A stretch of 35,567 nucleotides of DNA from Spartobacteria bacterium (GTDB lineage: Bacteria > Verrucomicrobiota > Verrucomicrobiia > Chthoniobacterales > UBA6821): positions 1-35,567 of the forward strand of contig CANKJN010000012.1 in the NCBI GenBank assembly GCA_947482345.1, given 5' to 3'. Positions 2,660 to 35,429 of this stretch are shown in pieces. The notes under the pieces were generated by a model, which saw only the letters and a program-made list of their open reading frames with translations, was not told where the DNA came from and searched no databases. The first letter of the stretch is position 1; each line of letters starts with the position of its first letter. The position numbers and the translations under genes were made by a program.

Positions 2660-3922
2660 ATGAATTCCCCGGAGACAAAGCCGCCGGGTTTTACCGAGGC
2701 CGCGCGCCTCTGGCTGAAGATCGGATGCATCGGTTTCGGCGGACCTTCCGGTCAGATCGCGATCCTGCATCGCGAGGTGGTGGAGAGGCGGAAGTGGATC
2801 GGTGATAGCGAGTTTGTCCGTGCGCTTCAGTTCTGCATGCTTCTGCCCGGGCCCGAGGCCCAGCAACTTGCAACCTGGATCGGCTGGCGTCTCCATGGGA
2901 TCAGGGGAGGGGTCGTCGCCGGGACTCTCTTCGTTCTGCCCGCCGCACTCCTGCTCTGGGGGCTTGGCGTTCTCTATGTGCTTGGGCGTGACTGGCCGCT
3001 GCTGCATGGGTTCTTCGATGGGCTCAAGCCGGCCGTGGTGGCGATCGTGGTTTCCGCGCTCTGGCGGATCGCCCGCCGGACCGTGACGACTCTTCCGCTC
3101 GCGATCCTGGCTCTGGCCGCGTTCGCCCTCTTTCTGCTTCATGCCTCCTATCCCTCTGTCGTGATCGGCTTCGGTCTTGCCGGTGCCCTTCTGCTCTCGA
3201 AGAAAGGGGAACCCGCTCCCCCGCGTCACGCGGTGACGGAAGCAGGCTGGAGCGGCTCATGCAGGGTTGCCCTTGCCACAACCGCCCTCTGGGCGCTTCC
3301 GGTTGCCGGATTACTGTTCTGGCTGGGATCCGATGCGCTCCCTTCGCGGATCGCGCTCTTCTTTGCCAAGGTCGCGGTTTTGAGTTTCGGAGGTGCCTAT
3401 GCCGCCCTCTCCTATGTTTCGCTTCATGCCTCGGGTGACTGGGGATGGATCACGCCCGGCGAGATGCTCGACGGGTTGGGGCTTGCCGAGACGACGCCGG
3501 GGCCACTCCTGATCGCCCTGCAATTCGTCGCCTTCCTGGCTGCTTACAAGTCCCCGGGGGTGCTGGCCCCGCTGCTCTCGGCAACCCTTGGAAGCATTGC
3601 CGCTCTCTGGTCCCTCTTTCTCCCCAGCTTCCTCTGGATCTTCTCGCTCGCGCCGCACATGGAGCGCCTGGCCTCGCACCGCCGCATGGCCGGCGCCCTG
3701 GCCGCGATCGGGGCCGTGGTGACCGCCGTGATCGCCCATCTCGCCCTCTGGTTCGCCGGGAGCATATTCATGACTCAGTCATCCTCGGGCACCTCCTTTC
3801 ACCCGCTTTCGATCGTGATGGCACTGGTTGCTTTGGTGCTGCTCCGGACGAACCGCCTCGGAATCGCCTCCTTGATCCTCCTCTCGGGAATGACCGGCGT
3901 CCTTGTGAGGTTGGTGACTTAA
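2660..3922 (+). CDS. chrA: Chromate transporter (ChrA/CHR family), two-domain
   Basis: Inner-membrane protein of 420 residues, the usual size for bidomain CHR proteins, which export chromate or exchange related oxyanions. Both halves carry the family marks: FGGP at 26-29 and LPGP at 62-65 in the first half, FGGA at 243-246 and TPGP at 279-282 in the second. Long hydrophobic stretches between them fit about ten membrane segments. The ATG lies 8 bp after the mutS stop. The TAA stop (3920-3922) is the first part of the TTAACCC end of a repeat element, so the natural C-terminus may have been reset by the insertion. Chromate is inferred from the family; the true substrate cannot be read from sequence. 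Confidence 0.9.
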   Translation: MNSPETKPPGFTEAARLWLKIGCIGFGGPSGQIAILHREVVERRKWIGDSEFVRALQFCMLLPGPEAQQLATWIGWRLHGIRGGVVAGTLFVLPAALLLWGLGVLYVLGRDWPLLHGFFDGLKPAVVAIVVSALWRIARRTVTTLPLAILALAAFALFLLHASYPSVVIGFGLAGALLLSKKGEPAPPRHAVTEAGWSGSCRVALATTALWALPVAGLLFWLGSDALPSRIALFFAKVAVLSFGGAYAALSYVSLHASGDWGWITPGEMLDGLGLAETTPGPLLIALQFVAFLAAYKSPGVLAPLLSATLGSIAALWSLFLPSFLWIFSLAPHMERLASHRRMAGALAAIGAVVTAVIAHLALWFAGSIFMTQSSSGTSFHPLSIVMALVALVLLRTNRLGIASLILLSGMTGVLVRLVT

Positions 3923-4204
3923 CCCAGAATTTGCATTGGGAACCTGAAGAGCAAAGAGGAAGAACCAAAAAGTTAGAACGTAGAAGCGTTAGAAAGTGGA
4001 TCAAAACAGCCCTGGTCTGAGAATCGAGATGGCAAATTCAGAGAACTCGTCACAGCAGCACGGGCCGAAGAGTCGAATCAATGGTTCCAATGCAGTCCCT
4101 TCTAACCCTTTTAACGCTTCAACGTTTTTAACTCCTTGAGGGCCCACCATCAGGGGAAACCATCCACACCAGTTGATGCCGCTCTATTGCAAAATCCGGG
4201 TTGA
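3919..4204. repeat. MITE-like element M1 with inverted ends, after chrA
   Basis: Fills the gap between chrA and aat. The left end reads TTAACCCAG then TTTGCATTGGGA. The right end, inverted, reads TCAACCCGG then TTTTGCAATAGAG. Inner copies of GTTAGAA-type and CTTTTAACG-type sequence sit near the two ends and could pair. The right half (about 4090-4204) is clearly similar to 8124-8232, and its inverted end matches the left end of 31253-31551. No transposase is encoded. The ends look like a non-autonomous mobile element, but no clear target-site duplication is visible. Confidence 0.7.
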
Positions 4205-4220
4205 AGGAACCTCTGATGCT

Positions 4221-5031: not shown

Positions 5032-5080
5032 TCAGGTCTCAGGTCTCAGGTCTCAGGTCTCAGGTCTCAGGTCTCAGGTT
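5032..5080 (+). repeat. 7-bp tandem array, unit TCAGGTC, 7 copies
   Basis: Seven consecutive TCAGGTC units, the last one TCAGGTT. Related arrays of the same period occur at 11314 (CAGCCTT), 12174 (TTCAGGT), 25417 and 26871 (GGCTGAA). It is directly followed by the CCGGCCGTTGCT module and an AGCGGCTTGGTTCA tail, which are parts of the hairpin element family. It is too short and without spacers to be a CRISPR. Confidence 0.9.
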
Positions 5081-7111: not shown

Positions 7112-7600
7112 ATGAGCCGCCGCCGCGCGATCTATCCGGGAAGCTTCGACCCGGTGACCAATGGTCACCTCGACCTGATCACGCGGTCGCTCGGTCTCTT
7201 TGACGAGGTGATCGTCGGGGTGGCCGACAACGAGGCGAAGAGCCCTCTCTTCACCACGGCGGAACGCGTCGACCTGATCCGCCGGAGCGTCGGCGATCAG
7301 CCGGGTCTTTCCGTGGAGCCGCTCAACGGTCTCTTGGTCGATTTCTGTCGCCGCCGTGAATCCTTCGTCGTCATCCGGGGCCTGAGGGCCGTCTCCGACT
7401 TCGAGTTCGAGTTCCAGATGGCACTGACCAACCGCCGCCTCGAGCCGAAGATCGAGACCATCTTCCTCACGCCCAGGGAGGATTGCATCTTCCTGAGCTC
7501 CCGGATCGTCAAGGAGGTGGCCCGCCTCGGCGGTGATGTCACCCCGTTTGTCTCCGCTCCGGTGCTTGATGCCCTGACCGAAAAATTTCCCAAGGCCTAA
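7112..7600 (+). CDS. coaD: Pantetheine-phosphate adenylyltransferase
   Basis: CoaD makes dephospho-CoA from 4'-phosphopantetheine and ATP, the fourth step of CoA synthesis. The 162-residue product has the nucleotidyltransferase motif YPGSFDPVTNGHLD near the N-terminus, the RGLRAVSDFEFEFQMALTNR block and the C-terminal SSRIVKEVA motif (the ISSR type). The ATG at 7112 gives the standard length and is 8 bp after the guaA stop, which suggests cotranscription. The TAA stop at 7598-7600 is also where a dispersed repeat begins. Confidence 0.97.
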   Translation: MSRRRAIYPGSFDPVTNGHLDLITRSLGLFDEVIVGVADNEAKSPLFTTAERVDLIRRSVGDQPGLSVEPLNGLLVDFCRRRESFVVIRGLRAVSDFEFEFQMALTNRRLEPKIETIFLTPREDCIFLSSRIVKEVARLGGDVTPFVSAPVLDALTEKFPKA

Positions 7601-7766
7601 GGAATCGCTGATTTAATCGCATATAGGCCGTTACGGGAAGAATGGGCCGCGGGCAAGGCAGCTTCGCGGGCGCATCCCCGCAGTGGGCTGCAACCGCGAA
7701 GCCAACGCAGCCCCCGGCCCGTTATCCCCGCAACCCGGAGGGCTGAACCCATTTGTCGATTTTTGC
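7598..7766 (+). repeat. Dispersed repeat A, copy 1
   Basis: Matches 35189-35429 over its length: CGCTGATT, AATCGCATA, AGGCCGTT, CGGGAAGAA, GGCCGCGGGCAAGGC, GCTTCGCGGGCGCATCCCC, CAGTGGGCTG, ACCGCGAAGCC and a final GTCGATTTTTGC are shared. CTTCGCGG and CCGCGAAG within it are inverted and can pair around a 20-30 nt loop. This copy lacks a segment of about 35 nt present in the other one. The gap 7601-8281 contains this, a hairpin element and a MITE-like element, and no gene that can be supported. Confidence 0.85.
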
Positions 7767-7837
7767 GGCGTTGCTCGCTCGGGCGAGACCGCTGCGGGTA
7801 TTGACTCGCTCGCTCCCGCTCGGCTCGCCCTGACGGG

Positions 7838-7882
7838 TTTGCCTTCGGCAAATCTACCCAAGCCGCCCACGCAGCTACGTGT
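7838..7882 (+). repeat. Degenerate fragment of the hairpin element
   Basis: TTTGCC-TTC-GGCAAA is followed by TCTACCCAAG. This resembles the third hairpin and the GTCTACC linker of the multi-hairpin family, but the rest is diverged. It faces the intact copy at 7901-8003 on the opposite strand. Confidence 0.4.
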
Positions 7883-7900
7883 TGCCCAGCACTCGCGCCT

Positions 7901-8003
7901 TCAACCAAGCCTCCGGGAGGAGGCGCGGAGAAGCATGCCGAAGGCATGATCCCCCATCACAATGGGGGACGGCACCGCTTCTCGGGAGAGAAGTGCCGTT
8001 CAA
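7901..8003 (-). repeat. Covarying multi-hairpin element, copy 2
   Basis: Read on the minus strand: GAACGGCAC, inner stem TTCTC-TCCC-GAGAA, GCG, GTGCCGT; second hairpin CCCCCAT-TGTG-ATGGGGG; third hairpin CATGCC-TTC-GGCATG; linker CTTCTCCGCG; fourth hairpin CCTCC-TCCC-GGAGG and tail CTTGGTTGA. All four hairpins are perfect and their stems differ from those of other copies. It points toward the 3' end of coaD, so it would be antisense to coaD read-through. Confidence 0.85.
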
Positions 8004-8044
8004 AAATCAGCAAATGCTCTTCAGTGGCCTTCATGGGATTTAAT

Positions 8045-8232
8045 CAACGGTTCCCTAATGAAACTGGAAGGAGGGTTAGAAGGGTTAAAACGGAATGGAG
8101 AATCTGAAACCCGTCGGCATTCGGTCCCTTGTAACCCTTTTAACGGTTCAACGTTTTTAACTCCCTGAGGGCCACCATCCGGGTGAACCATCCACACCAG
8201 TTGATGCCGCTCTATTGCAAAATCCGGGTTCA
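8045..8232. repeat. MITE-like element M2 (left end uncertain)
   Basis: The segment 8124-8232 closely follows 4090-4204 of M1: GTCCCTT, TAACCCTTTTAACG, TTCAACGTTTTTAACTCC, TGAGGGCC, CATCCACACCAGTTGATGCC and the inverted end CTCTATTGCAAAATCCGGG. The left end is diverged and its position is a guess. The element stops 50 bp before yceD. Confidence 0.6.
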
Positions 8233-11048: not shown

Positions 11049-11420
11049 CCTTTTAAAGGCTCGCGATCTTGGCGGATAGCAGCGTTGTTGCTCGCTCGCG
11101 GTAGGTGCACTACCGCTTCGCTCTCACGCCTTGCTCTCCATCCAAGCTTGCGAGCTTTGGGAAAAATTCATGCGCCTTGCCATCATCAAAAATCCCCTCG
11201 CCATAACTGAATAGGGTTGGGCTTTATTTGAGGGCTTAACGCCTTGCTCTCCATCCAAGCTTCCAAACCTATTGGGAGGAATTGATCCCATCGATTGCAG
11301 TCATCGCACCTTCCAGCCTTCAGCCTTCAGCCTTCAGCCTTCAGCCTAAACCGCTAAGAGCCTGCGGCCCGACAGGCCGCCAGGCGGCGAGCGCTTCCCT
11401 AATGCAAAATCCGGGTTCAT
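11049..11420. other. Gene-free, repeat-rich interval after fabH
   Basis: No gene can be supported here. CGCCTTGCTCTCCATCCAAG occurs twice (about 11127 and 11239), the first after CGGTAG-GTGCA-CTACCG, a perfect 6-bp hairpin. GCGTTGTTGCTCGCTCG near 11090 resembles 7767-7784 beyond repeat A. Five CAGCCTT units lie at 11314-11348. The end, 11390-11420, joins AGCGCTTCCCTAA (the inverted start of repeat A) to TGCAAAATCCGGGTTCA (an end of the MITE-like family). Confidence 0.7.
11314..11348 (+). repeat. 7-bp tandem array, unit CAGCCTT, 5 copies
   Basis: Four perfect CAGCCTT units and one CAGCCTA. Same period and similar composition as the arrays at 5032 and 12174, and the inverted complement of GGCTGAA at 25417 and 26871. 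Confidence 0.9.
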
Positions 11421-12153: not shown

Positions 12154-12173
12154 GGAGGGGATTCTTTTTAGCC

Positions 12174-12201
12174 TTCAGTTTTCAGGTTTCAGGTTTCAGG
12201 T
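12174..12201 (+). repeat. 7-bp tandem array, unit TTCAGGT
   Basis: One TTCAGTT and three TTCAGGT units, then TTGCTTGCCCGGCCGTTGCT, the same junction of heptamer array and 30-nt module as at 5080-5100. Confidence 0.85.
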
Positions 12202-12227
12202 TTGCTTGCCCGGCCGTTGCTTCGCAT

Positions 12228-21336: not shown

Positions 21337-22242
21337 ATGTCCGCCATGATGGCATCCACGCCACTTCCCGTCATCGGTCTTGTTGCCGGTGATCCCGCCG
21401 GTGTCGGTCCCGAGCTTCTTGCCGAAGCACTGCGCCATCCTCCCGAGGGAGTGACGCTCTCGGTCATTGGGGATCCGACACCCCGCAATCCCGGCCGCCC
21501 CGACGAGGAGGGCTCCCGTCGGGCGATTGCGGCACTCGAGGAGGCCGCACGCCGGGCCCTTGCCGGGGAGCTTGCCGCCGTGGTCACGGGACCCGTGAGC
21601 AAGAAGCACCTTCACGGTGCCGGATTCACCTTTCCCGGCCAGACGGAGTTCTTTGCGGCGCGGGCCGGCGTCGAGAACTTCGCCATGCTCCTGACGGGAG
21701 GCCCCCTGACCGTGGCGCTCGTGACCGCTCATGTTCCGCTGCGCGAGGTGGCCGCGATGCTGAGCTCGGATGAGATCGTTCGGGTGGGGGGATTGCTTGC
21801 AGCATTCCTCCGGCGGCGCGGTATCGCCTCTCCTCGCATTGCCGTGGCCGGGCTCAATCCCCATGCGGGGGAGCAGGGTGATCTCGGCGACGAGGAGGAG
21901 AGGATCATCTCCCCGGCCATTCCCTTGCTGGAAGCCGCCGTTCCCGAAGCCCGGTTCACCGGTCCCTTGAGCCCCGACACCGTCTTCTGGCGCGCCACCA
22001 ACGGGGAATTCGACGGCGTCCTCTGCATGTATCATGACCAGGGATTGATCCCGCTGAAACTTCTCGGCTTCCACGACGGGGTCAACGTCACCCTCGGTCT
22101 GCCGTTTATCCGCACGAGCCCCGACCACGGGACGGCCTACGAGATCGCGGGAACCGGGAAAGCCCGCCCCGACAGCTTCCTTGCCGCCCTCCGCCTCGCC
22201 GCGGAATTGGTTGGAGGGAAGGAAGGAAATTCACAGGGATGA
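21337..22242 (+). CDS. pdxA: 4-hydroxythreonine-4-phosphate dehydrogenase
   Basis: PdxA oxidises 4-phosphohydroxy-threonine in DXP-dependent pyridoxal phosphate synthesis. Motifs: GDPAGVGPELL, VVTGPVSK, FPGQTEFFA, VTAHVPLR (His132 as metal ligand candidate), GLNPHAGE, MYHDQGLIPLK and SPDHGTAYEIAGTGKA. At 301 residues it is shorter than the usual 325-335, mainly because the segment between VIGDP and ALEEAARRAL is compact. The last residues (GGKEGNSQG) are translated from purine-rich repeat-like DNA, and the stop falls inside it. PLP made here would serve the class IV aminotransferase upstream, among others. Confidence 0.94.
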   Translation: MSAMMASTPLPVIGLVAGDPAGVGPELLAEALRHPPEGVTLSVIGDPTPRNPGRPDEEGSRRAIAALEEAARRALAGELAAVVTGPVSKKHLHGAGFTFPGQTEFFAARAGVENFAMLLTGGPLTVALVTAHVPLREVAAMLSSDEIVRVGGLLAAFLRRRGIASPRIAVAGLNPHAGEQGDLGDEEERIISPAIPLLEAAVPEARFTGPLSPDTVFWRATNGEFDGVLCMYHDQGLIPLKLLGFHDGVNVTLGLPFIRTSPDHGTAYEIAGTGKARPDSFLAALRLAAELVGGKEGNSQG

Positions 22243-22484
22243 AGGGGATAAAAGGGATGGGAGCGGAGGCGATCGGGTTAAAAAGTTGAATGGTTAAAAG
22301 GTTAGGAGGGGTTTGAACCAATCCCTCGGAACTTCTGCCCCGGAAGCTGCAAGACTCTTGGGTAGCAAGGCGCTGTCACTGAAATTGCATCAGGTCCGCA
22401 TTGTAACGATTCAACATTCTTCGTGCTCACATCCCCAACTCCTCTCTGCTCGCCAGGCGCGGACTTTTCAGGCAACCTCTTCGG
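22243..22484. other. Gap before lysS with degraded repeat
   Basis: Contains GGTTAAAAAG and GGTTAAAAGGTTAGG near the left and GCATTGTAACGATTCAAC on the right. These resemble the inner arms of the MITE-like elements at 3919 and 31253, but no clear ends remain. No T-box antiterminator sequence was recognised, and no gene is supported. Confidence 0.45.
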
Positions 22485-24077: not shown

Positions 24078-25436
24078 GTGAAAACAGCCGACACTCCCCC
24101 GGGGACGCCCGGCACCGGTGGCTACAAAGGCCCGCTCGGTCTTTTCGATGTTCCCTACACTCAGGAAACCTTCGGGTTTCATTGGTTTCAGTTCTACAAT
24201 GCGATCTGCTTCCAGATCATTCTTGGTGCTCCGATCGTCCTGCTGGCCAAGGATCTCGGGGCCAACTCCGTCATCCTAGGAGTGATCGCCTCCTTCACGC
24301 CCCTGATGACGGTGCTGCAACTTCCCGCGGCGCGTTATCTTTCGCGGTACAGTTACAGATCCTTTGCCCTGATGGGATGGGGACTCAGATCGTTATTCAT
24401 CGGCACTTCGGCGGTCGTTCCTTTACTCTTCTTCCTCTCCCCTGAGGTGCGGCTCTGGATCCTTCTTGGAAGCCTCTTTTTCTTCAACGTGCTGCGAGGG
24501 ATCGCCACTGCGGCCTTCATGCCGTGGCTTACCGGGATTGTGCCCGCCGCCGTGAGGGGTCGGTTCATCTCGGTGGATCACACGTTCATCAATGCGGGGA
24601 GCCTTCTTGCCATGCTGCTCTCAGCGCTTCTGATGAAGGACGGGGCGGAGCCTTGGCGCTACTCGCTAGTCCTATGGATCTCGGTGGCAACCGCCGTGGT
24701 GAGCCTTCTCTATCTGCGCCGCATTCCCGACGCGAGGCATGGGGAGATGACTGCCGAATCCTCCGTCAAGGTGCCTTTCGTCGACATGGCCCTGCTGGCA
24801 CCTTTTCGCAAATGGGTTCTCTTCAGCCTGCTCTTCGTCCTTGTCGGAGGGGGTCTCGGGGTCTTTCCGGTGGAGTATCTCAAGGATCAGGCCCGGTTTT
24901 CCCCCTACCTGATCTACATGCTCTCCACCGGAACATTTCTGGCGCCGATGATCATTCTCCAGGCGGTCGGGAAAAAGGTCGACCGCTCGGGAAGCATCCC
25001 ATTGATCCGCATATCCTTACTGGCCTTTGCCCTCGTGCTTGGGATCTGGTTCATGATGTCCGCGGGGGTGATCACGCCGAGTTGGTGGCTTGTCCTTCTG
25101 CTAAATGTCTCCGGCGGTGCGGCGATGGCTTCGTTCAATATGGCGAACGGCCACCTCTGGATGAGTGTGGTTCCCGAATCGGGTAAGAACCACTACTTTG
25201 CCGTCTCCACAGTCATCGTGAGTCTTGTCGCGGGAGTTGTGCCGATGCTCTGGGGATGCTTGCTCGATTCGCTGGGTGGGCTCGATCTTGTCGCCGGTCC
25301 CTTCCATCTCAGACGCCACAGCGTCTATTTCCTCGGGATCACCCTCCTCTGCCTGGCCTCACTCCTTGCAAGCAAGATCCTGATCCAACCGGGGAAGCAC
25401 GGAGACCGAGGGGAAAGGCTGAAGGCTGAAGGCTGA
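24078..25436 (+). CDS. Major facilitator superfamily transporter
   Basis: A 452-residue integral membrane protein with about 12 hydrophobic segments in two halves separated by a short loop near residues 215-235. The loop after the second segment (ARYLSRYSYRSFALMGW) is the MFS-type cytoplasmic loop. Substrate unknown. The start is a GTG; the N-terminus up to 35 is soluble. The C-terminal residues RLKAEG and the TGA stop are made by three GGCTGAA repeat units, so this end derives from intergenic repeat DNA, and the stop codon is the first base triplet of a 14-bp palindrome. Confidence 0.85.
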   Translation: MKTADTPPGTPGTGGYKGPLGLFDVPYTQETFGFHWFQFYNAICFQIILGAPIVLLAKDLGANSVILGVIASFTPLMTVLQLPAARYLSRYSYRSFALMGWGLRSLFIGTSAVVPLLFFLSPEVRLWILLGSLFFFNVLRGIATAAFMPWLTGIVPAAVRGRFISVDHTFINAGSLLAMLLSALLMKDGAEPWRYSLVLWISVATAVVSLLYLRRIPDARHGEMTAESSVKVPFVDMALLAPFRKWVLFSLLFVLVGGGLGVFPVEYLKDQARFSPYLIYMLSTGTFLAPMIILQAVGKKVDRSGSIPLIRISLLAFALVLGIWFMMSAGVITPSWWLVLLLNVSGGAAMASFNMANGHLWMSVVPESGKNHYFAVSTVIVSLVAGVVPMLWGCLLDSLGGLDLVAGPFHLRRHSVYFLGITLLCLASLLASKILIQPGKHGDRGERLKAEG

Positions 25437-25437
25437 A
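25417..25437 (+). repeat. 7-bp tandem array GGCTGAA, 3 copies, inside the MFS gene end
   Basis: Three perfect GGCTGAA units encode the last residues and stop of the MFS gene. Elsewhere (26871) the same unit occurs in non-coding DNA. Confidence 0.85.
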
Positions 25438-25465
25438 CCAAGCCGCTTCCTAGCGGCTTGGTTCA
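25434..25465 (+). terminator. 14-bp perfect hairpin at the MFS stop codon
   Basis: TGAACCAAGCCGCT (25434-25447) pairs with AGCGGCTTGGTTCA (25452-25465) around a TCCT loop. The right arm is the last hairpin and tail of the multi-hairpin family; here the stem is extended to include the tail. There is no T tract, so termination is possible but not certain. It may also protect the transcript end or be the solo form of the repeat. Confidence 0.7.
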
Positions 25466-31168: not shown

Positions 31169-31252
31169 GGCGAGTGAAGTGGGGGTATGGTGGGGATTGG
31201 CCAAGTCAAGCGACGGGATGTTGTTTGTTCCGGGATAGAAGAGAGAGGGTGT

Positions 31253-31551
31253 TTAACCCAGATTTTGCATTAGAGCGTCGTTGACAGGTTTGAGCGTTTC
31301 ACCCGGATGGTGAGTCCCTGAAGGGTTAAAAGCGTTACACCGTTAAAAGGTTAAAAGGTTAAAAAGGGGCTGAAGTCCGAGGCCGAATTGAACTCATGCA
31401 GGCATCTTTTGACGGCGCTTTGCCTGACATTCCCCTTCCGAATCTCGGGTCAGGGCTCTCCCGGATCCACGTTGTAACATTTTCACTTTTTAACTCTTTT
31501 AACGCGGCCTCCTATTATCTCAGGAATTCCCAATGCAAATTCCGTGTTTAA
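31253..31551. repeat. MITE-like element M3 with TTAA at both ends
   Basis: Left end TTAACCCAG, TTTTGCATTAGAG; right end, inverted, TTAAACACGG, TTTGCATTGGGA. The left part matches the inverted right part of M1 and M2 (shared CACCCGGATGGTG at 31300-31312), so M3 is in the opposite orientation. Inside, GTTAAAAG is repeated near the left end (31324-31362) and CTTTTTAAC/CTTTTAAC near the right end (about 31484-31503), able to form a long stem. The right TTAA supplies the stop codon of the minus-strand gene ending at 31548. Confidence 0.75.
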
Positions 31552-32318
31552 GGTGTTTCGAAGACCCTGACGAAGGTCGGTTTGCCGTCACGAAGGAAGA
31601 AGGGAATGAGACAGTTTGCAGCGGCTCCCTCCTGCATGATGGAGAGTGGATGAGCTTTTCCATCTATCTCGGCGATCCATTCGACGCAGGGTGGTTGACC
31701 CGTCAGGAGAAGACTATTGCCCGGGGCAAGGAGGCACAGTTGCCTTGACGGCCTGTTCTTTTCAGGAAGTGTCTTGAGCACAAGGGTCTTGGAGGGCATC
31801 GCGTTAACCACCCGGTAGTGGCAGGGATCCTTGCAGACGAATTCCACCGGATAGAGATGGAATTGGAAATTCGGCGGCCACTTGACGGAGACCTGAAGCT
31901 GGTTGTCCGCCACTTGGGGAAGCTTGTCGGCAGGGCCGGATCGGCTGAGATCACCCGTGAGCAGCAACACTTGGGAGGAGATCGGTCTGAAGCGGATGCT
32001 CTTCTCCGCAATAGGGGTTCCTTCCATGGTGCGGGCCAGGTAATGGATCTCGGTGGTCCGAAGCGGTTCATTGGCCGTCCATTCACCCTGGGGGAAGCGG
32101 GGGTAGGCTGCGGGGAGGTTGATGCCGTGGGTGGAGAGGGAAATCGCAGGAACGCAGGTGGCGTTCACGATGGTGATTTTCACCCTGGGTGTGGGTAACG
32201 GAGTGGCGTGGCCTTGATGCGGCGGGTGTGCCAAAGGCCGATGTTGTTCTTGAGAGGACTCGGCACCAAGGGGAAGCAGTGCCGCTTGTGCGATGATCAG
32301 CAGGGTGGCCGGCAGCAT
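31548..32318 (-). CDS. Secreted hypothetical protein downstream of the pseudopilin-like gene
   Basis: 256 residues with a signal peptide (LLIIAQAALLPLGAES), a His/Pro-rich start of the mature part, then beta-rich sequence with several cysteines (CVPAIS, CKDPCHYR, QLCLLAPG, PPCVEWI, NCLIPFF). Start at ATG 32318. It is 46 bp downstream of the 934-residue gene on the same strand and is probably cotranscribed, so a shared surface or secretion role is inferred. The stop codon is part of the end of repeat M3. No family recognised. Confidence 0.7.
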   Translation of the reverse strand: MLPATLLIIAQAALLPLGAESSQEQHRPLAHPPHQGHATPLPTPRVKITIVNATCVPAISLSTHGINLPAAYPRFPQGEWTANEPLRTTEIHYLARTMEGTPIAEKSIRFRPISSQVLLLTGDLSRSGPADKLPQVADNQLQVSVKWPPNFQFHLYPVEFVCKDPCHYRVVNAMPSKTLVLKTLPEKNRPSRQLCLLAPGNSLLLTGQPPCVEWIAEIDGKAHPLSIMQEGAAANCLIPFFLRDGKPTFVRVFETP

Positions 32319-32364
32319 GGGTAAAAATAGGTAAAAAAAACAGGACAGGTTACAAACGCTCCGC

Positions 32365-35169
32365 TCAATGCCGGGAAACATCACGGAGGCTGGGGATCAG
32401 CCGCCCTGAAGGATCCGGGGTGATCCTGATTAATCCCTGAATGAGCGATCTGGAGGAAGGTTTGCCCGAGTGGTCAAGGGCTTCGCCAACAACAGTGATC
32501 CGAAAGGTCCTCGATTGCACGGTGCAGTGCCCGATGATCCTGCCGAAGGCCTCCTCGCGGGCCCGGTCGAAGACGTCGGCCACCGGCGGGGTGCTGCCCG
32601 GAACATTCACCGAAAGGCTCGGGAGGTAGGTCTCGGCGTTGATGAGGTTGGTGGTGAGGAGGCGGAGGTCGGAGAGCCGCGAATAGGGGCGGTGATCCTC
32701 CAGCAGGGTGGCGAGTTCATCGGCCGCCTTGGCGCTGATCACGCTGTTGGTGAAGCGGCGGTCGGAGGTCGCTGCGACACCGGTGAAGAGGGCGGTCAGA
32801 ACGGCATGGGTGGCCGTATTGACATTGATCCTGCCGGGAATGCCGACGGAGGCGGCGTCAGTTGCGGCCGCATTGGTTCCAGGTTGGCGTCCCGGTGCGC
32901 TCACGGTGAAAAGATCGATCAACTCCACGGCCCTCTTGCCGGAAACATCCCAGTCGAACTTCGGGGCGGGGACATGGAATTCCGGTTGTCCGATGCGAAG
33001 GGTGCGCCCACCGCCGCAGCAATAGGGGGTCTTTTTCGGAGAACCAGCGGCGGGGGCCTCGCAGTTGTCGGCAACCTGGGCCGGGTCGAAAATGTTGCCA
33101 AGTTCCGCCAGTGAAACCATGGGTCCCTTGCGCATGACGAAGGGGGCTTCGGAGGCGGAGGGGTTGGCATCATAGGGGGATGGGATCCGGTCCGGTGTCT
33201 GAAGCACGGAGTTAGGAGTGATTCCCTTGACCGGATTCACGGGAACACGATCCCGGCGGCTCCAGATATTCATGGGGTCGAGCACATACCCTCCCTGCCT
33301 GCTGCCCGTGGGATTGATTCCGCACCAGAGGCTCTTGAGCCGGTAATCCGTGACGACCGGCCATTTGTAGGCCGTGAGGAAGGTGGCGCGGGGATCACCC
33401 ACGAAATTGTAGTGTCCGGGATCGATCGCTTGATCAGTTTCCGCTGCCCCCTCCTCGCTGCTGTCAGCAGAGGTCCGTGTCGGGATGGTCATGCACTGCC
33501 AACGGGGGGTCGTGTCATCGAGGGTCTGCTTGTAATGGACAAGGCCACCCGATGCATCGCCCGGGGAGATGCCGGCGCGGCGGGAGAGGTCGACGAGCCT
33601 GCCGTTCCAGAAGAACGAGAACGCCTGATGGGTCGTCCCGTCGGTGTTCCCCTGGGGGCCCGCATCCCAGAGCGGGGGATTGGTCGCCGCGGTGGGCGAT
33701 ATCCATGTCTGCTCCTCGGGGTCGAAGGCGATGACAAGGAATTCATTGGGTCGGATGGAGGGTAGTGCAACCGACTTTTTCCGGTACTCGGCAAACGGGG
33801 TCATGATCCCGTCGCCGAACTTGAGCCGCGCCCGGTTGGTAATGAGGAGTTCCGCCACGCCGCCCGCAGGGATTGCGGAAGTGGTGGGATTCCAGACCTC
33901 TGCGAAGAAGCGGCTCTCAACGGTGACACCGTTGCTCCCAAGGGACTTTCTCGTGCAGCATTCGGCGATCTGCGTGACATAGGGCACGAGGTCGCGGCCC
34001 AGGGGTTCGGCGGTCGTGGGGCCTGTCGGGCCGGGTTTCGTGGAGATGTAGTCGATGATGCTGCAGGCAAGCCGCACCATATAGAGATCGGCCTGCTTTG
34101 CGGGGAGCGAGGGATCCCGGAATTTGAAATTCGGGAGGTTCCTGTCGATGATGGCGGCGATGTTGGTGGCTCGCGCGTAGGGAGTCGTCCCCCAGGCGGG
34201 ATTGGTCGCCAGATCATTGAGGTTGTATTTCGGAAGCCCACCCTCCGAGTAGCCGGAGGGAATCAGGTCGGGAAGCAAGCAGGGGTCGCGCGTCAGCAGA
34301 GCGCGCTTTTCGGCAAAGGCCTCGGGGGTGTCGAACGCCCTCTCGAAACTCCCCTCCGTCGGCACCGGTCCCTCGTCACGAAGCCTGCGGGCCTCACTGG
34401 CCGTGAGCAGGGTTCCGGAAACATTGGTCATCGGAAGATCCCCCGGGCCCTTGTGCCAGGAATCCGGATCGTTGCGCTCATGGCCTGCATGGAGGGCCGG
34501 ATTAAGGCGGGCCGATTCATCGGTCATGACAAAGGCGTAGCGTGCCACGGCTTTCCCGGTGGAATCCTTCAGATATTGCCAGAGCGCGGGGTAGCTTCCC
34601 TCGCCCGCGATGAGGCCGCCCTGCGGGGGGGACTGATGCGCATCCTGTGTCGACGTTTTTGCGGGGTCTCTGTCCGTATGGCTCTCGCCGGCAAACCTTG
34701 GATCATTGAGATTCACCGCCTCGTTGGAATTGGTGGAGAGGCGCTTGGTGAGCTGTTCGGGAAGGTAATCCGCGGGGAGCTTCGGGTAGGAGGAGAGCGG
34801 TTTTGTGTCGCAGGAGAAGAGCGGGATCAATTGCGTCGGTGTCACGAGGTTCGTGGCGCCGATGACCACGGCAGGCACTACACGAGTCCCGCTCTCGCCG
34901 ACATCCTCATCATCTAGGCCCACCAGAAAAGCTGGCCGGTTGGAGGTGCAGATCATCAGTCGTGCCATGGCCGCCGCCACCCCTGAGTCCGCAGCGATGC
35001 GCGCCTGCGTTTCAGCGGCGGCATTCGCCGAACTCCCCCTCTCCATTCGACTGCCATGCAGCATGGAGATCAGGATCAGGCTGAGGATGGCGACCGCCCC
35101 CAGGACGGCAATGATGGCGGAAGCGTCCTCAATACGCCCTGTTGATATTCGGGGTCGATGCGACTTCAT
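32365..35169 (-). CDS. Pseudopilin/GspK-like protein, likely Verru_Chthon cassette protein A type
   Basis: A 934-residue protein with an N-terminal membrane helix (about 17-39, ASAIIAVLGAVAILSLILIS) followed by SGVAAAMARLM, the typical start of GspK and related minor pseudopilins. Near residue 779 it has RINVNTATHAVLTALF, the GspK-type helix-hairpin motif, and ELATLLEDHRPYSRLSDL after it. Size and layout resemble the large proteins named Verru_Chthon cassette protein A, found with pilin-like partners B, C and D; those partners are not seen within the window. The next gene upstream is beyond the window end. Repeat A begins about 20 bp before its start codon. The cassette assignment is from memory of the family, not a search. 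Confidence 0.65.
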   Translation of the reverse strand: MKSHRPRISTGRIEDASAIIAVLGAVAILSLILISMLHGSRMERGSSANAAAETQARIAADSGVAAAMARLMICTSNRPAFLVGLDDEDVGESGTRVVPAVVIGATNLVTPTQLIPLFSCDTKPLSSYPKLPADYLPEQLTKRLSTNSNEAVNLNDPRFAGESHTDRDPAKTSTQDAHQSPPQGGLIAGEGSYPALWQYLKDSTGKAVARYAFVMTDESARLNPALHAGHERNDPDSWHKGPGDLPMTNVSGTLLTASEARRLRDEGPVPTEGSFERAFDTPEAFAEKRALLTRDPCLLPDLIPSGYSEGGLPKYNLNDLATNPAWGTTPYARATNIAAIIDRNLPNFKFRDPSLPAKQADLYMVRLACSIIDYISTKPGPTGPTTAEPLGRDLVPYVTQIAECCTRKSLGSNGVTVESRFFAEVWNPTTSAIPAGGVAELLITNRARLKFGDGIMTPFAEYRKKSVALPSIRPNEFLVIAFDPEEQTWISPTAATNPPLWDAGPQGNTDGTTHQAFSFFWNGRLVDLSRRAGISPGDASGGLVHYKQTLDDTTPRWQCMTIPTRTSADSSEEGAAETDQAIDPGHYNFVGDPRATFLTAYKWPVVTDYRLKSLWCGINPTGSRQGGYVLDPMNIWSRRDRVPVNPVKGITPNSVLQTPDRIPSPYDANPSASEAPFVMRKGPMVSLAELGNIFDPAQVADNCEAPAAGSPKKTPYCCGGGRTLRIGQPEFHVPAPKFDWDVSGKRAVELIDLFTVSAPGRQPGTNAAATDAASVGIPGRINVNTATHAVLTALFTGVAATSDRRFTNSVISAKAADELATLLEDHRPYSRLSDLRLLTTNLINAETYLPSLSVNVPGSTPPVADVFDRAREEAFGRIIGHCTVQSRTFRITVVGEALDHSGKPSSRSLIQGLIRITPDPSGRLIPSLRDVSRH

Positions 35170-35188
35170 CGGTTGACGGGGGTTTCCT

Positions 35189-35429
35189 TAGGGAAGCGCT
35201 GATTAAATCGCATAGAGGCCGTTGCGGGAAGAACTGGCCGCGGGCAAGGCGGCTTCGCGGGCGCATCCCCGCAGTGGGCTGCCGTAACGGATGCGAAGCA
35301 ACGGCCGGGCAAGCAAACCGCGAAGCCAACACAATTGGCCCCCGTGCCACGCCACGAAGCCAAAGGCTTTGTGGCCTTTGGCTTGGATCTCCGCAACCCG
35401 AAGGGCTGAAGTCATTTGTCGATTTTTGC
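35189..35429 (+). repeat. Dispersed repeat A, copy 2 (with inserted 30-nt module)
   Basis: Matches 7598-7766 at both ends. Inside, GGGCTG is followed by an extra segment (about 35279-35315) holding CCGTAACGGATGCGAAGCAA, the same module as in the hairpin element at 4885. Further right, AAGCCAAAGG-CTTTGTGG-CCTTTGGCTT forms a perfect 10-bp hairpin absent in copy 1. It lies directly upstream of the 934-residue minus-strand gene. Confidence 0.85.

Follow-up and report, generated by a model that had tools for sequence, protein, structure and literature searches.

Stop codons as target sites of IS5- and IS1380-family MITEs in a Spartobacteria genome

The stop codons of three genes in the window, the whole 35,567-nucleotide stretch of Spartobacteria DNA that was analysed, are transposon target sites. 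These are the stops of a chrA-like chromate transporter gene (PF02417; 2660-3922), of coaD (PF01467; 7112-7600) and of a minus-strand gene of unknown family (31548-32384); unless stated otherwise, features are on the forward strand. The coincidence of repeats and stops follows from ordinary transposon behaviour and involves no new mechanism: the insertion of MITEs at short target motifs, the duplication of the target and the survival of insertions outside coding DNA very probably explain it. Two further genes, an MFS gene and pdxA (PF04166), represent a different case. All five repeat/stop junctions listed in the initial annotation are present in the window sequence as it described them, and the coincidence is real, while its interpretation, that repeats supply the stops of neighbouring genes, insert or are tolerated only at gene ends and sometimes alter C-termini, is partly supported and mostly wrong.

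The five junctions are of two kinds. In the first, the stop is located next to a transposon-like terminus, on its outer side. The chrA TAA (3920-3922) is part of the left target copy CTTAA (3918-3922) of M1, a 278-bp IS1380-type MITE (3923-4200) with the termini CCCAGAATTTGCATT, which begins immediately 3' of the stop, and ATTGCAAAATCCGGG; the right flank, TTGAA (4201-4205), fits TTNAA and is identical to the left copy at three of five positions, so this junction has an imperfect TSD rather than a clean one. The coaD TAA (7598-7600) is contained in the left target copy CTAA (7597-7600) of the first copy of repeat A, a 454-bp IS5-family MITE (7601-8054) bounded by the TIRs GGAATCGCTGATTTAATC and GGATTTAATCAACGGTTCC and followed by the right target copy CTAA (8055-8058). 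The TAA of the minus-strand gene (31548-31550) falls within the right TSD copy TTTAA (31547-31551, minus strand) of M3, a 290-bp IS1380-type MITE (31257-31546), the left copy of which, also TTTAA, occupies positions 31252-31256. In junctions of the second kind the reading frame continues into a repeat, where it reaches its stop. The MFS TGA (25434-25436) comes after GGCTGAA heptads (25417-25437) and begins a perfect palindrome, TGAACCAAGCCGCT..AGCGGCTTGGTTCA (25434-25465), and pdxA ends at 22242 within the dispersed repeat AATTCACAGGGATGAAGGGGATAAAAGGGATG (22228-22259). The list of five cases was selective, as other repeats of the window are not at stops. These include M2 (8059-8228), an M-type sequence directly to the right of the first A copy with a right terminus and no recognised left one, another M end at 11415, and the second copy of repeat A, which has a target copy TTAG (35188-35191), extends from 35192 to the contig end and lies 5' of a gene start.

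Repeat A is an IS5-family MITE with an 18-bp TIR, GGAASCGCTGATTWAATC, and a 4-bp TSD, YTAR. The 2.36-Mb assembly, a fragmented MAG, contains 184 sites matching TARGGAASCGCTGATTWAAT with up to three mismatches versus one for the reversed control. In a sample of 925 kb, made up of stretches picked around repeat copies and also used as the source of controls, 46 copies have both TIRs in convergent orientation, with a modal length of 276 bp. Identical 4-bp flanks occur in 21 of 45 intact copies versus 7.2 expected by re-pairing the ends, and both outer flank positions covary (31 versus 21.6 and 34 versus 20.7 expected); outside YTAR the flanks show almost no compositional bias apart from a mild preference for C one to two bases away. 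The copy at coaD was assigned from its paired TIRs, the dispersed family and an IS5 element with the same TIR. Its two target copies are further supported by an empty-site alignment, in which the sequence to the right of A matches that 3' of coaD in the same-genus genome G002, with an identical offset of +13 bases. An IS630/Tc1-type target consisting of TA alone was rejected for A, since the bases outside TA covary between the flanks and thus indicate a 4-bp TSD. A REP/BIME palindrome identity was likewise rejected for both A and M, since each carries a TIR at either end and is flanked by target duplications.

Neither the modal copy of repeat A nor the 454-bp copy in the window has room for a transposase. 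A 1199-bp copy in another genome (locus L272), flanked on either side by TTAG, encodes an IS5-family transposase (NF033581, 283.7 bits; PF01609, PF05598) between A-type TIRs; the protein passes the cut-off of the NCBIfam model IS5_4 and of no other IS5 model. In a genome of the same genus as the window (L391), an IS5-like gene of 50% identity is enclosed by A-type TIRs that have TTAA on either side, and the A TIR with YTAR duplications also occurs in MAGs of many phyla. No autonomous IS5-type partner of A turned up in the assembly to which the window belongs, a MAG in which contigs often break at these repeats, and a stricter motif scan found no A- or M-type ends near the PF01609 transposases located elsewhere in the genome (contigs C13, C2 and C55). 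The A copies were probably mobilised by an IS5-family transposase.

M1 and M3 are members of a set of IS1380-family MITEs that have CCCRGAWTTTGCAWT ends and a 5-bp TSD with the consensus TTNAA. There are 68 termini within two mismatches, compared with zero for the reversed control, and TTNAA is the consensus outside the terminus at 71 ends. Exact 5-bp repeats flank six of nine intact copies, M3 included (TTTAA, TTCAA, ATTAA, ATAAA and ATCAT), and two more copies match at four of five positions. A TTAA target of the piggyBac-like type was initially considered, and was replaced by the 5-bp TTNAA once the flanks were compared. As in IS1380-family elements, an IS1380 transposase (PF13701, 143 bits; NF033539, 247.5 bits) is encoded between M-type ends on another contig of this genome (C53:7949-9193, within the element C53:7868-9260), whereas the M copies in the window are non-coding derivatives of about 280 bp, which an IS1380-family transposase presumably mobilised.

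These target preferences very probably account for the A and M repeats that abut stop codons. An IS5-type element joins into YTAR and duplicates it, and an IS1380-type element joins into a 5-bp TTNAA-like site with the same outcome. Any YTAR carries a TAR (TAA or TAG) on either strand, and TTNAA holds TAA or TGA on any strand where N is not C. In a genome of about 60% GC such sites are rare in coding frames and insertions into them probably seldom survive, so a gene's own stop is one of the few target sites touching a gene. Upon insertion at a stop the target is duplicated and the gene keeps both its stop and its C-terminus, with the repeat only appearing to supply the stop.

The initial annotation had named the lack of a genome-wide excess of repeats at stop codons as a refutation of its proposal; for repeat A such an excess was found. 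With genes called by a simple codon-usage method in the 925-kb sample, the stop of a called gene lies exactly at offset +1 for 17 of 141 A ends, and each other offset from -60 to +120 has between zero and three. Among loci from other phyla, some of which share a genome so that the counts are not fully independent, the stop is at the exact offset for 26 of 211 A ends, with zero to three at other offsets except +11. The coincidence is specific to the motif: A occupies 12 of 130 YTAR stops versus 2 of 430 RTAR or TGA stops in this genome, and 17 of 125 versus 1 of 496 in the loci from other phyla. In the M family a stop lies within the target 5-mer at 4 of 73 ends, a weak excess that is too small to stand alone.

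The occupancy of YTAR sites by A indicates where insertions persist. Only 0.2% of coding YTARs are occupied. The figure is 11.0% for stops, 5-6% for the 100 bp that follow genes, 12.6% for the interval 30-100 bp upstream of them and 3.5% for sites distant from confident genes, a class inflated by missed genes; gene-proximal non-coding YTARs other than stops thus range from 4 to 13%. Repeat A is therefore excluded from coding DNA and is not confined to gene ends. Of the earlier proposal that repeats insert at gene ends or are tolerated only there, the importance of tolerance outside coding DNA stands, and the restriction to gene ends does not, since upstream sites are occupied as often as stops. 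The scarcity of A in coding DNA probably results from selection after insertion.

A specific direction of the repeats to gene 3' ends, or their retention there beyond what the motif accounts for, for example through terminator structure or transcription, would offer another explanation. It would agree with the 2.4-fold excess of A at stops relative to non-coding YTARs as a whole (odds ratio 2.4, p=0.003) and with the location of 43% of A targets, versus 22% of control YTARs, no more than 30 bp from the 3' end of a gene. However, RTAR and TGA stops, which are equally at gene ends, are essentially never hit, and the excess at stops is not significant against YTARs of the 3' flanks alone (odds ratio 2.1, p=0.06) and amounts to 1.2-fold against those of the 5' flanks (p=0.59). 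Moreover, convergent gene pairs show no enrichment for A, and the nearly flat composition beyond YTAR gives this explanation no support. Since nearby non-coding YTARs are occupied to a comparable degree, a special gene-end preference is not established; the modest, roughly two-fold residual excess at stops may include a further preference, as yet unproven. On balance, targeting of gene 3' ends as such is improbable. It is even less probable that IS5-type transposition is enriched at stops beyond motif availability and that YTAR and TTNAA targeting form an evolved host-sparing strategy, in which stop-shaped targets serve as safe gene-touching sites and on which two unrelated IS families have converged.

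Another explanation is that the repeats bring their own stops and shorten or lengthen the genes into which they insert, making both the stop and the C-terminus repeat-derived. For A and M this is contradicted by orthologues, and as an account of the coincidence it is quite unlikely. In congeners coaD encodes 162-168 aa, most often 162, with no A at the gene end, and the C-terminus KFPKA-stop found in the window is kept in these element-free genomes. The product of the gene at 31548, which ends RVFE-T/D-P-stop in most congeners, has the same end residue in all congeneric matches that reach the C-terminus, none of which has M3 there. For the chrA product, the C-terminus of most congeneric orthologues is no more than a few residues away. 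A and M3 thus left the C-termini as they were, and there is no indication of a change through M1, the history of which is less clear given its imperfect TSD. In addition, where YTAR is duplicated the in-frame TAR was a stop before the insertion. The earlier statement that repeats supply the stops of neighbouring genes is consequently not supported for A and M, whose stops reside in the duplicated target and pre-existed. In favour of repeat-derived stops, nine ORFs in other phyla account for the peak at +11, which is consistent with a TGA inside the A TIR.

Insertion at pre-existing target motifs, which remains the preferred explanation for A and M, does not extend to pdxA and the MFS gene, the frames of which run a few codons into unrelated repeats containing TGA. 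Only pdxA, and probably the MFS gene, takes its last codons and stop from repeat DNA, and the tails concerned are small and unconserved. The pdxA frame runs into the repeat and ends NSQG-stop in the window and in G011. G004 and G012 have this repeat too, immediately preceded by a TAA. Most other relatives have no repeat at pdxA and end several residues earlier. The repeat is present in 17 copies in the 925-kb sample, and no transposase or duplication was identified for it. It is purine-rich and often lies between genes, in some cases close to the 3' end of a gene (the window copy and 16 further sample sites). The GGCTGAA heptads encode the MFS tail RLKAEG-stop and, owing to their 7-bp period, have a TGA in every frame of that strand; the tails of MFS orthologues vary freely. 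The suggestion that C-termini are sometimes altered thus holds clearly for pdxA and probably for the MFS tail, in both cases through repeats other than A and M, and not for the A and M junctions. Seven-base tandem repeats of the TCAGGTC, TTCAGCC and TTCAGGT types also recur between genes of the window (5039-5080, 11311-11348, 12166-12203 and 25417-25437).

A chance coincidence in one window, with five junctions picked from many repeats, would fit the copies lying away from stops and the weak M-family excess, but is already refuted for A by the exact-offset spikes in the 925-kb sample and across phyla and by the preference for YTAR stops over RTAR and TGA stops, and can be set aside with near certainty.

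In E. coli, insertions of IS5 carry the TSD YTAR (PMC10359306). Repeat A resembles IS5 in its YTAR duplication and in the IS5-family transposase found between A-type TIRs in other genomes, and differs in being non-autonomous. A similar element is MITEPsy1 of Pseudomonas syringae, a short non-coding sequence with an 18-nt TIR starting GGAAG and a TSD of CTAG or YTAA, thought to derive from the resident ISPsy2 (PMC3189936). MITEPsy1 shares with repeat A the 18-nt TIR beginning GGAAG and the 4-nt TSD, and differs in internal sequence, in length (100 nt versus 276-454 bp) and in the body of the TIR (GGAAGGTCTGAAAAAGCC versus the A sequence given above); a coincidence with stop codons was not found for MITEPsy1 in the passages covered. 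A published parallel to repeat-derived stops is provided by QMITE2 in enhC of Coxiella, a MITE at a gene 3' end that is read through in one strain and preceded by a stop in another (PMC5896051). The same alternation between read-through and a stop just before the repeat is seen in pdxA, although the repeat family is another one and the extension is 33 residues in Coxiella versus about four in pdxA. In the part of the open-access literature that was covered, no direct precedent was found for IS1380 with TTNAA or for stop-codon targeting by an IS, and no paper stating the consequence of YTAR or TTNAA targets for stop codons. For annotation, a stop next to an IS5- or IS1380-type MITE usually belongs to the gene itself and persists in the duplicated target; C-termini should therefore not be called altered without orthologues. 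The stops also provide a clean measure of how a target motif and selection against coding insertions place repeats on stops in unrelated bacteria.

Several further features of the two families were observed. Many contig ends (the starts of C8, C19, C24, C33, C46, C52, C53, C73, C84, C85, C98 and C120) have an M- or A-type terminus no more than a few hundred bases away, suggesting that these repeats interrupt the assembly and conceal full-length IS copies. M-type sequence follows coaD both in the window, as M2, and in the same-genus genomes G002 and G009 (L283, L286), and is thus probably older than the A insertion at the coaD stop. M-type elements were found inside an A-type TIR (GCTGATT/AACCC) at three loci (L019, C8:431; L028, C85:546; L035, C20:12822), a nesting explained by the TTWAA site within the A terminus itself, which fits the M target. 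Very short derivatives of A include sequences of about 56 bp in which the two TIRs almost touch (C1:48176-48231 and C13:16677-16732) and a nested palindrome of 33 bp (C6:42158-42190).
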